Assembly: GCA_003153475.1 (NCBI GenBank)
Contig: PLYT01000093.1
Span: 1 to 64,000, forward strand
Source: Betaproteobacteria bacterium
Lineage (GTDB): Bacteria > Pseudomonadota > Gammaproteobacteria > Burkholderiales > Casimicrobiaceae
DNA length: 64,000 nucleotides
Direction of reading: 5' to 3'
Position 1 is the stretch's first letter; every line of letters starts with the position of its first letter. The notes under the pieces were generated by a model, which saw only the letters and a list, made by a program, of their open reading frames with translations, was not told where the DNA came from and ran no database searches. Of the stretch, positions 1,278 through 42,580 are shown in pieces. A program made the position numbers and the translations under genes.

Positions 1278-1703
1278 ATGACCGCGCAACGAAAGCTCGT
1301 TCACACCACGTGGGTGCCGATCCGCTGGGGCGATATGGACGCGCAGGGACACGTCAACAATACCGCGTATTTCCGCTACATGGAGCAGGCGCGCATCGAG
1401 TGGCTGATGTGGCTCGATGATCGCTGCGGCGGATTTCCGGGCCAGGGTTCGGTCATCGTCAACGCCAGTTGCACGTTTATCACACCGCTCACCTACCCGG
1501 GGACGGTCGAGGTGCGCATGTATGTCGATCCACCGGGCCGATCGAGCATCGGGACGCATTATGAGCTTCGCATCGGCGAGATCAAGCACGCGGAAGGGAG
1601 CGCCAAGCTGGTGTGGATCGACCAGCAATCGCTGCGCTCGGCGCCGCTGCCGGAGCGGGTAGCGACACTCGCCGCGCAGGGCGAAGCGGTGCCCGGACCG
1701 TGA
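1278..1703 (+). CDS. Acyl-CoA thioesterase, 4HBT/YbgC type hotdog fold
   Basis: The 141-residue protein has the length and layout of a single-hotdog acyl-CoA thioesterase, which hydrolyses acyl-CoA or 4-hydroxybenzoyl-CoA type thioesters in the cytoplasm. The segment WGDMDAQGHVNNTAYFRYME carries the family aspartate and the HVNN signature. Its stop overlaps the GTG start of the next gene (GTGA), so the two are probably translationally coupled. It diverges from ETF-QO, which fits a role in acyl-CoA metabolism. The natural substrate cannot be told from sequence. Confidence 0.88.
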   Translation: MTAQRKLVHTTWVPIRWGDMDAQGHVNNTAYFRYMEQARIEWLMWLDDRCGGFPGQGSVIVNASCTFITPLTYPGTVEVRMYVDPPGRSSIGTHYELRIGEIKHAEGSAKLVWIDQQSLRSAPLPERVATLAAQGEAVPGP

Positions 1704-2638
1704 ACGTCATCGCCATCGTCGTCGCGCTGGGCGTCGAGCAGTGGCGGACCTTTCGCTGGCGCGGCGCGCTGCAACAGGCGTTCATCCGCTATGCGCGATG
1801 GCTCGAGCACCGGTTCAACGGGGGCTCGGCGCAGCAGGGTGCGATCGCGGCCATGCTCGCCCTGGCGCCGCCGATCCTCGTCGCCGCGTGCGGATTCTGG
1901 GCACTCGATCAGCTGAACCCGGTGCTGGGCCTCGCCTGGAACGTGCTTATCCTCTATCTGCTGGTCGGTTTTCGTCATTTCAGCCACGCTTTCAGCGCGA
2001 TCGTCGAGGCGCTGAAGGCTGGCGATGCGATCGCTGCGCGCCGTTGCCTCGCGGCATGGCGCGGCAGCGACGCCAGCGCCGTCGGCGCCGAGGAAATTCC
2101 GAAGCTCGCCATCGAGCAGGGCCTCGAGGATTCGTATCGCCACGTCTTCGGCACTTTGTTCTGGTTTCTCGTGCTGCCGGGACCCGCGGGTGCGGTCCTC
2201 TACCGTGCCACGGTGCTGCTCGCCGCGCAGTGGCAGGGCGACGAGTCGACGCCTCTGGGCCAGCACCTGAGCGCGTTCGGGGCGCCGGTGCGTCGCCTGC
2301 TGCATTGGCTCGACTGGATCCCCGTGCGGCTGACCGCCGCGACCTTCGCCGTCGTCGGCGACTTCGAAGACGCGATTTATTGCTGGCGAACGCAGGCCGG
2401 GCAATGGCCCCGCCTGCACGAAGGCATCCTGCTGGCGAGCGGCGCGGGCGCGCTGGGCGTGGTCATCGGCGGTGCGATTACCGGCGCGACCGGCGAGCCC
2501 GAGTTCCGGCCAGAGCTCGGCATGGGCGAGCCGGCCGACAGCGACGTTCTGGCAAGCGCGGCTGGACTGGTCTGGCGGGCGCTGTTGGTATGGCTCGCCG
2601 TCCTCGTGGTGCTTACGCTCGCCTATTGGGCGCCGTAG
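1700..2638 (+). CDS. CobD/CbiB-family integral membrane protein
   Basis: The protein resembles the CobD/CbiB (adenosylcobinamide-phosphate synthase) superfamily, seen in segments such as FRHFSHAFSAIVEALKAGD and GLEDSYRHVFGTLFWF and in several hydrophobic stretches. I chose the GTG at 1700, which overlaps the thioesterase stop as GTGA and gives 312 residues starting in a hydrophobic helix. The longer ORF-track start at 1613 lies inside the upstream gene. No other cobalamin gene is present here, so a true role in B12 synthesis is unproven; stand-alone members of this family occur in betaproteobacteria. Confidence 0.75.
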   Translation: MNVIAIVVALGVEQWRTFRWRGALQQAFIRYARWLEHRFNGGSAQQGAIAAMLALAPPILVAACGFWALDQLNPVLGLAWNVLILYLLVGFRHFSHAFSAIVEALKAGDAIAARRCLAAWRGSDASAVGAEEIPKLAIEQGLEDSYRHVFGTLFWFLVLPGPAGAVLYRATVLLAAQWQGDESTPLGQHLSAFGAPVRRLLHWLDWIPVRLTAATFAVVGDFEDAIYCWRTQAGQWPRLHEGILLASGAGALGVVIGGAITGATGEPEFRPELGMGEPADSDVLASAAGLVWRALLVWLAVLVVLTLAYWAP

Positions 2639-2651
2639 GCCCCCTCGCGCA

Positions 2652-3590
2652 TCACCAGGTTTGCGCGCGCCGCCCGCTGTCCGAAAGCAACTGACGGAGC
2701 AGCGCCAATCGCCACGGCTTGACCTCGCCGCGCGCGATCGCTTCCCGGATTGCGCAACCGGGCTCGCTGTCGTGGCGGCAATTGCGAAAGCGGCAGGTCC
2801 CCAGCAACGGACGCAACTCGACAAAGCCGCGCTCGATCGCGTCGGCGGGAAGATGCCCGAGGCCGAACTCTTTCATGCCGGGCGAGTCGACGATCCAGCT
2901 CGACGCATCGATGAGGTAGAGCGTGGTCTCGGTCGTCGTGTGACGCCCGGTGTGCAGCGCCGCCGAGACTTCGCCGACCCGCGCCGCGGCCGATGGAAGC
3001 ATCCGGTTGATCAACGTCGACTTGCCCATGCCGGATTGTCCGATCAGCACGCTGTGCTGGCCAACCAGGAGCGGTGCCAGGGCACCCGCGCCTTCGCTGG
3101 CGGAGATTTCGACGACCGGGTAGCCGAGTGCCGCAAATTGCGCGAGCCGCGGCCGGATCGCCGCGAATGCGGGCAGGTCGCGCTTGTTGGCGATGAGGAC
3201 AAAGCGGCAGCCGGCGGACTCCGCAGCAACGATCCAGCGGTGCACCAGCTCGTCGTCGAACGGCGGATCGGGCGCGACCATGCCCAGCACCTGTGTCACG
3301 TTGGCCGCGATAAGCTTTTCGCGTCTTGCGTCGGAGCGATAAAAAAGCGTGGTCCGCGGCTCGATTGCCTCGATCACCCCCTCTCCGGGGCCCGATTCCA
3401 CCCAGCGCACGCGATCGCCGCAGGCGATCGCCAGCGTGCGTCCTCGCAGCACGCATGAGATCGTGCTGCCGTCGTCCGAGCGGACCAGGTAGTGCCTGCG
3501 GAATGTGGCGGTGACGAGTCCCGCCGCGCCGATCACGTCTCGCGGCGTGGCGGCGTCCGCGGCGGTCGCCGAATCAAGGGCTGCGGGCAA
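2652..3590 (-). CDS. rsgA: Ribosome small-subunit-dependent GTPase A
   Basis: RsgA (YjeQ) is a circularly permuted GTPase that helps late 30S subunit maturation. The order of motifs is permuted as expected: NKRD (G4) near residue 135 comes before the P-loop GQSGMGKST near 184, then DSPGMKEFGLGHL (G3). The C-terminus has the zinc-binding set of Cys and His residues (CRFRNCRHDSEPGC). Length, 312 residues, is normal. The track start is a TTG at 3590 overlapping phhB by 17 bases; a GTG at 3536 is an alternative. It is the last gene of the M48 protease-phhB-rsgA run. Confidence 0.95.
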   Translation of the reverse strand: MPAALDSATAADAATPRDVIGAAGLVTATFRRHYLVRSDDGSTISCVLRGRTLAIACGDRVRWVESGPGEGVIEAIEPRTTLFYRSDARREKLIAANVTQVLGMVAPDPPFDDELVHRWIVAAESAGCRFVLIANKRDLPAFAAIRPRLAQFAALGYPVVEISASEGAGALAPLLVGQHSVLIGQSGMGKSTLINRMLPSAAARVGEVSAALHTGRHTTTETTLYLIDASSWIVDSPGMKEFGLGHLPADAIERGFVELRPLLGTCRFRNCRHDSEPGCAIREAIARGEVKPWRLALLRQLLSDSGRRAQTW

Positions 3591-39377: not shown

Positions 39378-40262
39378 ATGAAATGCACGACCTGCGGTTA
39401 CGAAACGCAGCCGGGCGCCAGGTTTTGCGTCCAGTGCGGGACGACCCTGCCGGCCGAACCGGCGCCTGTTGCGGCGCCTGCCCCCGCTGCGATGACTCCC
39501 CCAAGCCCTGCGCCAGCGCCATCGGTGGCGGCGCCGGCGAAACCGGCGCCAGCCGCCTCGAGCGCAACGATTCCGCCGCGTACCCCGGCGCCGCCTGCGG
39601 CCACCACTGCCGCCACACCCGCGCCCGCTGCCGCACCGATGTCCGTTGCCGGCGGCCCGCCGAAGCTCGGCATGATTGCCGCGATGCTCGCATTGGTTGC
39701 CGTGCTCGGCATCGGCGGGTTTGTCGCTTACCGGGTTTCGCTATCGAGCGGAGCGCAAGACAAGACGACAGAGACGGACGCCGGCAAAGCGCCGGACGCC
39801 GCCGTCGCGCCTGCACCCGTCGACGCCGCGAAAGACGCAAGCGCCCCGGCAGGTGCTGCGCCGGACGCAAGCAAGGATCAACCTGCCGCAGCCGCCGCCC
39901 CGGACGCCTCGAAATCCGCGGCCCAGAACAGCACCGGAGCAGGGACCCCGACCAAGGGAACGCCGGCCGCCACGGCAGCGAAAGGGGCGCGACCGACGAC
40001 AACAACCGGTACCACCGCTACCGGCTCGAGCGAAACGCCGGCTCCGGCGCCCGCTGCGGTGGCGCGAACGCCGACGCCGGCGTCGGCCGCGGCACCGCAA
40101 CCCGACCGCTGGCAGCAGATGCACGAAGCGATGTTGCGCTGCAAGCGCGAGGATTTTTTCCGTCGCATCGGGTGCGAGCAAAGCGTCGGGCTGCAGTATT
40201 GCGAGGGTTATTGGGGCAAGGTGCCGCAGTGCCCGGGCGTGGCCAGGGAATCGGGACGCTGA
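39378..40262 (+). CDS. Zinc-ribbon single-pass membrane protein with Cys-rich C-terminal domain (copy 1)
   Basis: The 294-residue protein has an N-terminal zinc ribbon (CTTC and CVQC), a Pro/Ala-rich linker of about 65 residues, a transmembrane helix near residues 97-115 (MIAAMLALVAVLGIGGFVAY), a second low-complexity Ala/Thr/Pro linker, and a C-terminal domain of about 45 residues with DRWQQMHEAMLRC, GCEQSVGLQYC and GYWGKVPQCP. The same C-terminal domain ends the gene at 41753. The expected topology puts the ribbon in the cytoplasm and the Cys-rich domain in the periplasm. Function is unknown. GGAGG precedes the start. Confidence 0.82.
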   Translation: MKCTTCGYETQPGARFCVQCGTTLPAEPAPVAAPAPAAMTPPSPAPAPSVAAPAKPAPAASSATIPPRTPAPPAATTAATPAPAAAPMSVAGGPPKLGMIAAMLALVAVLGIGGFVAYRVSLSSGAQDKTTETDAGKAPDAAVAPAPVDAAKDASAPAGAAPDASKDQPAAAAAPDASKSAAQNSTGAGTPTKGTPAATAAKGARPTTTTGTTATGSSETPAPAPAAVARTPTPASAAAPQPDRWQQMHEAMLRCKREDFFRRIGCEQSVGLQYCEGYWGKVPQCPGVARESGR

Positions 40263-40343
40263 TCGACTCCAGGGGCTGGTCAACTTGACGACCAAGGCCG
40301 GTCCGTCGAGAATGAAACGCCGCAGATTTTCAGGGGGAAAACA

Positions 40344-40514
40344 ATGAGATTATTCGCGGGTGCCGTCGCACTGCTGTTCACGTTGCCGGCGTTTGCCGGC
40401 GGCAACGGGGCCATATTCTTCCAGGTCCCGACGCTCGATGAATTCGGGCTGGTCGGTTTGATCGCCCTGGTCGGTATTGCCGCCGGCCTGGTCGTACGTC
40501 GCCGCAAAAAGTAG
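40344..40514 (+). CDS. 56-residue microprotein: signal peptide plus IPTL-CTERM-like tail (copy 1)
   Basis: This gene is absent from the ORF track. ATG at 40344 follows AGGGGGA by about six bases. The product has an 18-residue signal peptide (LLFTLPAFA), a short bridge (GGNGAIFFQ), the motif VPTLDEFG, a hydrophobic helix (LVGLIALVGIAAGLVV) and a basic end RRRKK. The layout after the bridge is that of the IPTL-CTERM protein-sorting signal (IPTL, then helix, then Arg cluster). Almost nothing else is left, so the tail may be the entire cargo. A near-identical tandem copy follows. Confidence 0.85.
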   Translation: MRLFAGAVALLFTLPAFAGGNGAIFFQVPTLDEFGLVGLIALVGIAAGLVVRRRKK

Positions 40515-40575
40515 TCGTCATTTCACCCGACGCGGGCCGCGGCATCGGGCCGCCGCGTTGATCGAGGGAGAGAAC

Positions 40576-40746
40576 ATGAAAGTCTTCGCGACTGCTGCTG
40601 GGCTGCTGTGCTCACTGCCGGCATTTGCCGGTGTCAACTCGGCCATTTTTTTCCAGGTGCCGACGCTCGACGAATTCGGGCTGATCGGCTTGGTCGTCGC
40701 CGTGGGCGTCGCTGCCGGCTTGGTCATCCGCCGCAAGAAAAAGTAG
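40576..40746 (+). CDS. 56-residue microprotein: signal peptide plus IPTL-CTERM-like tail (copy 2)
   Basis: The ATG at 40576 (GGGAG upstream) starts a product of exactly the same length as the gene before it. The signal peptide ends LPAFA, the bridge is GVNSAIFFQ, then VPTLDEFG, the helix LIGLVVAVGVAAGLVI and the end RRKKK. The residues IFFQVPTLDEFGL are identical in both copies while the signal peptides differ. The pair therefore looks like a tandem duplication under selection for the tail. The track ORF has a false 33-codon extension. A fatty-acid-hydroxylase-type gene follows 52 bases later. Confidence 0.87.
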   Translation: MKVFATAAGLLCSLPAFAGVNSAIFFQVPTLDEFGLIGLVVAVGVAAGLVIRRKKK

Positions 40747-40798: not shown

Positions 40799-41608
40799 AT
40801 GGCGATGAACGACATGTTGTCGCTGCTTCGAGTCGCCTATTACGGGCTGATGGCGGGCACATTTGCTTTCCTGCTGCTGTGGGAGGACGGTGCGCCATTG
40901 GTGGCAGGCATGCCCTCGCGGCGGCGCCACGTTCTACGCAACCTTGCCATGTTCGTGTGCGTGGTCGCGGTCGCGGACGGCCTGGTCGGCGGATGGCTGC
41001 TGGACATTCCGTCGCGGCTGACAATCACGCCGCCGGGCTTGTTAACCCCGTTGCCGCTAGCCATCCAGCTGATCGTCGCGTTTGTCGTGATGGACCTGTC
41101 CACCTACGCGTTTCATCGGCTGCTTCACGCGCAGCGCTGGCTCTGGCTGATGCACTCGGTGCACCACTCCGACGCGTACCTCGACGTCAGCAGCAGTATT
41201 CGCCATCATCCGGTCGAAGTGGCGCTGGATGTCGCCCTGAAGCTGGTGCTGTACCTGTTACTGGGACTGCCGCTTTGGATGGAGGCGGCGCGCACGTTGC
41301 TGATCAATCCGCTGAGCATGGCGCAGCACGCCAACATCGCCTATCCGCCCTGGATCGAGCGTCCGCTGCGCTGGCTGCTGGTCACTCCGCAGATGCATCG
41401 GGTCCACCACATCCCCAACGAGGCGGAGACCAATTCCAACTTCGGACAATGCTTCTCCTTCTGGGACCGGATGTTCGGCACCTACCGCGCAGCGGATCCG
41501 GCGCTCCCGCCCCGCTTCGGCCTGGCTAACCTCGGCGGGGAGACATTTCAGTCGATCGCCGGCATGCTCCTGACCCCCGTCCGGGCGTGGCGGCTGCGCA
41601 CGCTGTAG
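40799..41608 (+). CDS. Sterol desaturase / fatty acid hydroxylase family membrane enzyme
   Basis: The 269-residue polytopic protein carries the histidine boxes of the fatty-acid-hydroxylase superfamily: HRLLH, HSVHH and HRVHH, with a further HH in SSIRHHPVEV. These bind a di-iron centre that hydroxylates or desaturates a lipid. The N-terminus has two hydrophobic segments before the catalytic core. The start may be the ATG at 40805. The gene lies right after the two microproteins, so it may be expressed with them, and its lipid substrate is unknown. Confidence 0.88.
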   Translation: MAMNDMLSLLRVAYYGLMAGTFAFLLLWEDGAPLVAGMPSRRRHVLRNLAMFVCVVAVADGLVGGWLLDIPSRLTITPPGLLTPLPLAIQLIVAFVVMDLSTYAFHRLLHAQRWLWLMHSVHHSDAYLDVSSSIRHHPVEVALDVALKLVLYLLLGLPLWMEAARTLLINPLSMAQHANIAYPPWIERPLRWLLVTPQMHRVHHIPNEAETNSNFGQCFSFWDRMFGTYRAADPALPPRFGLANLGGETFQSIAGMLLTPVRAWRLRTL

Positions 41609-41752: not shown

Positions 41753-42580
41753 ATGAGTTGCCAGATCTGCGGACGGCGCAGCGCGCCGGGGTCCAAGCTT
41801 TGCGCCGACTGTCGTGCCGCGCGCAAGCGCGCCTTCGATGCAACGATCACTCAACCGCTGATGGCGATGGCCGGCGCGGGCACGGTCTCGCGCACGTTGG
41901 CGCGGCTGCGCCGGGCGGAGGCCTCGCCAGAAGCCAAGGCTCGGCGGGGCGCCCGCAAAGCCAAGGCCGCCGCGGAAAGCGCAGCCCCGCCGGTGGTCGC
42001 GCCGACGGCTGCTCGGAAATCGGCCGGCTCGCGGTCCTTGCTGTGGATTTTATTGTCGATCGGCGTCGCGTTCGCGGGGATCGCGGGCTGGTATCTGCCG
42101 AGTCGCGCGCCCGCCACGCCCGAGGCCGATCGGGACTCGTTCGCGACGCCCTCGGCGCCCCCCCAAGCCGGCGCCGACGTCGAATCGCCACGCGCCACGC
42201 CCGTCGAGACGGCCCCGCCGGCGGCGACGCTGCCGCCGCTCCCCACGATCGTCGAGCGCGAGCTCGTTCCCTATGCGCCTCCAGCCGGCAGGCCGGCGAC
42301 GCCCAAGCGCGGCGCCGTGGCGGCGAAGGCAGCGCCGCCGCCCGAACCGCCGGCCGAAGTCGAAGTCGTTCGCGTGCCGACCCCGGCGCCCGCGCCGCCC
42401 GTGCCGCAGCCGGTGCCGCGAGTCGATCCCTGGCAGCAGATGAACGAAGCGATCGGCCGTTGCCCTGACGGATTCCTGGGCCGCGTCGTCTGCGAGCAGC
42501 GGGTTCGCCTGCAGTATTGCGAAGGACATTGGGGACAGGTGCCGCAATGCCCCGGGGGCCCGAGCGCCGAGCACGATTGA
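41753..42580 (+). CDS. Zinc-ribbon single-pass membrane protein with Cys-rich C-terminal domain (copy 2)
   Basis: The 275-residue protein has an N-terminal zinc ribbon (CQIC and CADC), a basic Ala-rich region, a transmembrane helix (LLWILLSIGVAFAGIAGWYL), a long Pro/Ala linker and a C-terminal domain with DPWQQMNEAIGRC, VCEQRVRLQYCEGHWGQVPQCP. It shares the topology and the last domain with the gene at 39378, though the ribbon and linkers differ in detail. AGGGGAG precedes the ATG at 41753; the track ORF starts 47 codons early. Function is unknown. Confidence 0.83.
   Translation: MSCQICGRRSAPGSKLCADCRAARKRAFDATITQPLMAMAGAGTVSRTLARLRRAEASPEAKARRGARKAKAAAESAAPPVVAPTAARKSAGSRSLLWILLSIGVAFAGIAGWYLPSRAPATPEADRDSFATPSAPPQAGADVESPRATPVETAPPAATLPPLPTIVERELVPYAPPAGRPATPKRGAVAAKAAPPPEPPAEVEVVRVPTPAPAPPVPQPVPRVDPWQQMNEAIGRCPDGFLGRVVCEQRVRLQYCEGHWGQVPQCPGGPSAEHD

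Follow-up and report, generated by a model that had tools for sequence, protein, structure and literature searches.

Tandem 56-residue microproteins with an IPTL-CTERM-like tail beside a membrane hydroxylase gene: candidate minimal substrates of exosortase H

The microprotein-hydroxylase locus

The window, meaning the whole 64,000-nucleotide stretch of DNA analyzed here, carries two tandem open reading frames of 56 residues each, as the initial annotation had described, and a gene for a membrane hydroxylase downstream of them. The features of the locus are as follows.

40285..40313, + strand: sigma-70-like promoter match (TTGACG-17-GAGAAT) from a consensus scan, upstream of microprotein 1
40344..40514, + strand: microprotein 1, 56 aa; predicted signal peptide at residues 1-18, bridge at 19-27, VPTLDEFG at 28-35, helix at 36-51, then RRRKK
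40576..40746, + strand: microprotein 2, 56 aa; GAGGGAGAG directly before the ATG
40799..41608, + strand: membrane fatty-acid-hydroxylase superfamily protein, 269 aa; PF04116; 52 bp downstream of microprotein 2

Both frames contain the parts that had been claimed for them, namely a signal peptide, a 9-residue bridge, VPTLDEFG, a helix and a basic end. Microprotein 1 consists of MRLFAGAVALLFTLPAFA (predicted signal peptide), GGNGAIFFQ (bridge), VPTLDEFG, LVGLIALVGIAAGLVV (helix) and RRRKK, and microprotein 2, in the same order, of MKVFATAAGLLCSLPAFA, GVNSAIFFQ, VPTLDEFG, LIGLVVAVGVAAGLVI and RRKKK. The predicted signal peptide lies at the N-terminus of each product, and the tail with its helix and basic end forms the extreme C-terminus. 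An AlphaFold model of microprotein 2, of modest confidence (pLDDT 70), places helices at residues 2-17 and 33-55 with an extended bridge between them. The open reading frame listing includes both microproteins, the second given as 89 aa with an upstream TTG start. The sigma-70-like consensus scan returned 2 matches in the region versus 0.2 expected, which is no proof of function.

The two microproteins are 71% identical overall. The segment IFFQVPTLDEFGL is the same in both, as initially noted, and the divergence described for the signal peptides and helices was borne out by 7 and 6 nonsynonymous changes, respectively, versus 0 in VPTLDEFGL. Between the copies 30 codons differ, 14 of them synonymously, with 12, 10 and 20 changes at codon positions 1, 2 and 3, and the NG86 estimates are a dN of 0.195, a dS of 0.708 and a dN/dS of 0.28. 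Additionally, a strict architecture filter (signal peptide, [VI]P[TA]L, helix and basic end) retrieved exactly 2 products in the window, microproteins 1 and 2, and 0 in 40 dinucleotide shuffles. As judged from these sequence comparisons, the pair is coding and under purifying selection.

Sorting tail and relation to known families

The tail had initially been called IPTL-CTERM-like, and this assignment was upheld by NCBIfam and missed by Pfam. With the NCBIfam model TIGR04174 (IPTL_CTERM), microproteins 1 and 2 scored 22.0 and 22.4 bits and both passed the cut-off of 20.5; the low scores are explained in part by the model being only 27 positions long. With Pfam PF18203, both fell below the gathering cut-off of 20.8, at 15.2 and 18.1 bits. 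Conservation in the microproteins is highest at the Pro and Leu of the motif, the helix and the signal peptide varying more freely.

The microproteins share the same tripartite tail with the substrates of the IPTL-CTERM/exosortase H system (TIGR04174, TIGR04177), and XrtH is encoded in the genome. They differ in that an IPTL-CTERM tail usually ends a large exported protein, whereas here it accounts for roughly half of the 56 residues, in that the window genes lie in tandem and have an enzyme partner, and in the F that the window copies carry at the W position of IPTLxxWG. A second comparison is with midcut-by-XrtH (NF033207), which aligned to the microproteins over positions 7-64 with 19.9 and 22.3 bits; the signal peptide, short bridge, motif, helix and basic stretch match the first third of that model. 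Its higher-scoring members, however, have a second helix and a C-terminal domain, both of which the microproteins lack. Membership in this family was ruled out, since the scores lie below the cut-off of 45 and the microproteins end right after the basic stretch.

Distribution of homologues

The initial annotation had called for homologues of equally short length in tandem arrangement, and these are present in other genomes. Full-length homologues are 54-66 aa long overall and come in 1-3 tandem copies, often in 2-3. By protein and profile searches, 11 of the 64 genomes from the host's taxonomic family have them, the window's own genome counted, with copies of 56-66 aa. Three copies occur at one locus of genome G020 (contig C420) and in G009 and G015, where the third is more divergent; G030 and G010 have two each, those of G010 being 3 kb apart. 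Full-length homologues scored 47-83 bits over nearly the whole profile, versus 37 bits at most for ordinary IPTL tails, a gap that is partly built in, the profile having been made from 18 of the same homologues. Microprotein 1 scored 80.7 bits against the profile of alignment A1, of which it is itself a member.

Other genomes of the same genus yielded no full-length homologues, and the sampled genomes of the order beyond the family gave no match at 1e-8. The class sample added two further families, one represented by G775 with two tandem copies and the other by G465 with three loci of 1, 2 and 3 copies; with 23-36 bits the G465 copies are weak matches, whose assignment leans also on architecture and context. 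Taken together, these sequence matches indicate that the microproteins form a genuine and conserved family, without a name so far, whose members recur in tandem.

XrtH in the host and carrier genomes

The assembly that contains the window is fragmented (3.26 Mb, 74% complete). It encodes one XrtH, on contig C37, at 215 bits against a cut-off of 86, as well as a few larger IPTL-like proteins. The nearby sorting or exosortase-like gene that the initial annotation had envisaged is absent, XrtH being on a separate contig from the microproteins. XrtH was not found adjoining the microproteins in any carrier genome; it lies elsewhere in every one of them, and a role as their neighbor was ruled out. 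Further IPTL matches in the host genome lie on contigs C16, C55 (4074 and 20702), C82 and C94. Those on C82 and at C55:20702 were considered as additional microproteins and rejected, as they are the tails of longer frames.

All 13 carrier genomes, 11 within the family and 2 outside it, have XrtH. The co-occurrence within the family is weak evidence, because 57 of its 64 genomes have XrtH in any case. Most genomes with XrtH are without the microproteins, and hydroxylation thus cannot be a general anchoring step.

Two types of partner genes

The PF04116 hydroxylase, which the initial annotation did not mention, is the more useful part of the finding. The window enzyme matches PF04116 with 105 bits (cut-off 31) and has the histidine boxes HRLLH, HSVHH and HRVHH, the histidine-box residues being invariant in hydroxylase alignment A2. 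Its nearest NCBIfam model is that of the ornithine lipid hydroxylase OlsE (NF052566), a member of the same superfamily from which the window enzyme differs in falling, with 89 bits, far under the equivalog cut-off of 475. Since OlsE is the nearest curated model, a lipid substrate would be reasonable. A sequence comparison with solved structures gave no confident relative, the only match being Scs7 at an E value of 0.13.

Fifteen of the 16 microprotein loci adjoin one of two partner types, the exception being the locus of G013. A PF04116 hydroxylase is the partner at 11 of the 16, across two families (the window, G020 with two, G030, G008, G010, G078, G022 and G465 with three); it follows the microproteins except at one of the three G465 loci, where it is about 1 kb off on the opposite strand. 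At 4 of the 16 loci, also across two families (G012, G009, G015 and G775), the partners are a gluconate-dehydrogenase-subunit-3-like protein and a GMC oxidoreductase. By sequence, the closest solved structures to the latter are FAD glucose and fructose dehydrogenases, and this partner, a different enzyme from the hydroxylase, is probably periplasmic. Tandem microproteins upstream of subunit-3-like and GMC genes were seen at L059 (7183-7911), L063 (7128-7802) and L197 (6394-6905); subunit 3 has a Pfam match in L063 and L197, and in L059, which has none, it was assigned by similarity to its neighbors. No cytochrome subunit was noticed in passing near these genes.

Tailed neighbors of related hydroxylases

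When the hydroxylase alignment was scanned against 84,980 species genomes, 17 loci were returned. All four matches of at least 48% identity have a microprotein upstream, these being the same records as G010, G020, G030 and G078 and adding no extra genomes. Within the family, all hydroxylase loci of at least 50% identity likewise have a microprotein upstream.

Beside more distant hydroxylases there is often a different exported protein, whose sorting-like tail has the same layout. At ten loci this is a protein of about 190 aa, several of which match choice-of-anchor D weakly. These are found at L154, L155, L136, L157-L160, L162, L164 and L167, with a tail such as DALGREGLTLLAAALFALTAWTSLRR. The tails of this group did not match the named sorting models in their own right, and may represent an undescribed XrtH signal. 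Tailed proteins of about 100 aa lie beside the hydroxylases of L161 and L165. The frames at these two loci (449-2713 and 1345-3137) exceed 590 aa and run from a hydroxylase into further sequence, apparently as fusions, and each is preceded by the gene of about 100 aa with a helix and basic end. Microproteins of 54-59 aa near distant hydroxylases have a VPEI ending in two Acidobacteria and a true PEP-CTERM in a Rhodospirillales bin; the positions of these microproteins are 4562-4735 in L137, 4572-4751 in L142 and 3612-3779 in L143. The L143 microprotein has a canonical PEP-CTERM tail (24.4 bits versus a cut-off of 16).

A tailed exported open reading frame was detected at 500 bp or less from 25 of 36 hydroxylases versus 26 of 178 other genes (odds ratio 13), by a crude detector written after the first cases had been seen and on hydroxylase loci that are related by descent. 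The match at L141 is probably false, L161, which was judged real by eye, was missed, and eight of the most distant hydroxylases have no tailed frame by this detector. On the hydroxylase tree, the tail and partner types are clustered, with 8 changes versus a shuffled mean of 19.8. The partner type switches several times while a tail persists, which speaks more strongly than any other result for a connection between enzyme and sorting tail.

Proposed function and alternatives

We tentatively favor, at a little short of an even chance, a reading in which the microproteins are minimal dedicated XrtH substrates that are cut to an anchored peptide and work with a tailoring oxidase. The initial annotation had already proposed a dedicated substrate, which is plausible; nothing was found in favor of the decoy role that it also raised. 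What the sequences back directly is purifying selection, the recurrence of the family, the similarity of the tail, XrtH in all carriers and the recurring partners. Counting against the reading are the miss with the Pfam model, the F in place of W, the separation of XrtH from the microproteins in all carriers, the many XrtH genomes that have no microproteins, the common descent of the hydroxylase loci, and the GMC oxidoreductase as the other partner, which makes a shared chemistry harder to see.

Beyond this, we infer co-transcription, export, cleavage, anchoring and all of the chemistry of the microprotein-hydroxylase system. The precursors would be exported by Sec and cut by signal peptidase after AFA. 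The single XrtH of the genome would recognize the tail of VPTLDE, helix and basic end and remove it near VPTL. The remnant would be about 9-13 residues long, consisting of GGNGAIFFQ or GVNSAIFFQ with a few motif residues, and would stay linked to an acceptor such as a membrane lipid. The PF04116 hydroxylase would belong to this pathway as well and would most likely hydroxylate either the lipid that serves as acceptor or the product once anchored, and in other lineages the gluconate-dehydrogenase-like GMC oxidoreductase pair would take the partner position.

An anchored peptide with a tailoring oxidase is suggested by the distant kinship of the partner enzyme to OlsE and by analogy with the lipid enzymes of archaeosortases and the dedicated MrtJ pair. 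In archaea, the processing and lipidation of archaeosortase substrates require the lipid-head-group enzymes PssA and PssD, and pssA adjoins artA in some methanogens (PMC7157517). The likeness lies in lipid-metabolism genes being tied to sortase-like processing, but the enzymes and organisms are different, and pssA lies beside the sortase gene artA rather than beside a substrate gene (PMC7157517). MrtJ and JDVT-CTERM form a dedicated sorting pair with one target (PMC11980579). This two-gene system likewise is a small conserved neighborhood with a dedicated sorting substrate, although its partner gene encodes the sorting enzyme (PMC11980579). In the present loci an oxidase takes that place, and the gene for the sorting enzyme lies elsewhere.

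It is also conceivable, if rather unlikely, that the microproteins serve the adjacent oxidase, as small subunits or regulators embedded in the membrane, with the tail a plain helix anchor and XrtH processing absent or incidental. Short hydrophobic proteins often act as enzyme subunits, the microproteins are tightly linked to the enzymes and not to XrtH, and the AlphaFold model of two helices joined by an extended bridge would, at its modest confidence, suit such a role. However, it is the motif Pro and Leu that are most conserved while the helix is variable, two unrelated enzymes alternate as the partner, and the PEP-CTERM microprotein of L143 beside a related hydroxylase points to the sorting tail itself.

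Improbable, in our estimate, is a third reading, in which the microproteins give rise to short exported peptides; signal peptidase and XrtH would do no more than trim the ends, and the hydroxylase or the GMC pair would modify the peptide directly, in a ribosomal lipopeptide or signal route. Both cuts would leave only about 10 residues, and the tandem copies with variable bridges look like precursor sets. Aromatic bridge residues are found in 9 of 12 hydroxylase-linked versus 1 of 7 GMC-linked copies, which are few and non-independent. Against this, we know of lipid and sterol substrates for PF04116 enzymes and of no peptide ones, the bridges are not strongly conserved between lineages, and no transporter or protease was noticed beside the window genes. 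Finally, it is very improbable, even with IPTL-CTERM tails common in these genomes, that the microproteins lack function, as remnants in decay or tail pieces duplicated from larger IPTL-CTERM genes; this reading was discarded on the dN/dS of 0.28 (purifying selection), the intact signal peptides, the full-length conservation across three families and the conserved partners.

On the dedicated-substrate reading, the microproteins would be a novel form of exosortase substrate, and within the searches made their enzyme partnership is unreported. The titles and abstracts searched on exosortases with hydroxylases or sterol desaturases appeared to contain no link between them, the literature search gave no relevant paper on XrtH or midcut-by-XrtH and a single mention of IPTL-CTERM, and no named family or paper describing the microprotein-oxidase pairing was found. 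More broadly, exosortases may produce a new class of short, membrane-anchored peptides, an extension that we regard as doubtful; these would derive from tandem, dedicated precursors of about 56 aa, from which signal peptidase would trim one end and XrtH (in other phyla, PEP-CTERM exosortases) the other, with the peptide or its anchor lipid tailored by the hydroxylase or GMC oxidoreductase.

To our knowledge, it is not yet settled to which acceptor bacterial exosortases attach their substrates. With a substrate that consists almost entirely of sorting signal, beside a lipid-hydroxylase-like enzyme, this anchoring chemistry could be probed in a small and tractable system. If the product is processed, about 10 residues should be left in its mature form, and mass spectrometry could then show directly what is attached at the C-terminus; the partner hydroxylase gives a hint of the acceptor lipid.

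Surroundings of the cassette

The microprotein-hydroxylase cassette of the window is flanked by genes for two zinc-ribbon, single-helix, Ala/Pro-rich proteins (39378-40262 and 41753-42580). Their C-terminal 43 residues are paralogous, with 65% identity, and the cassette lies between them as if inserted between tandem duplicates.
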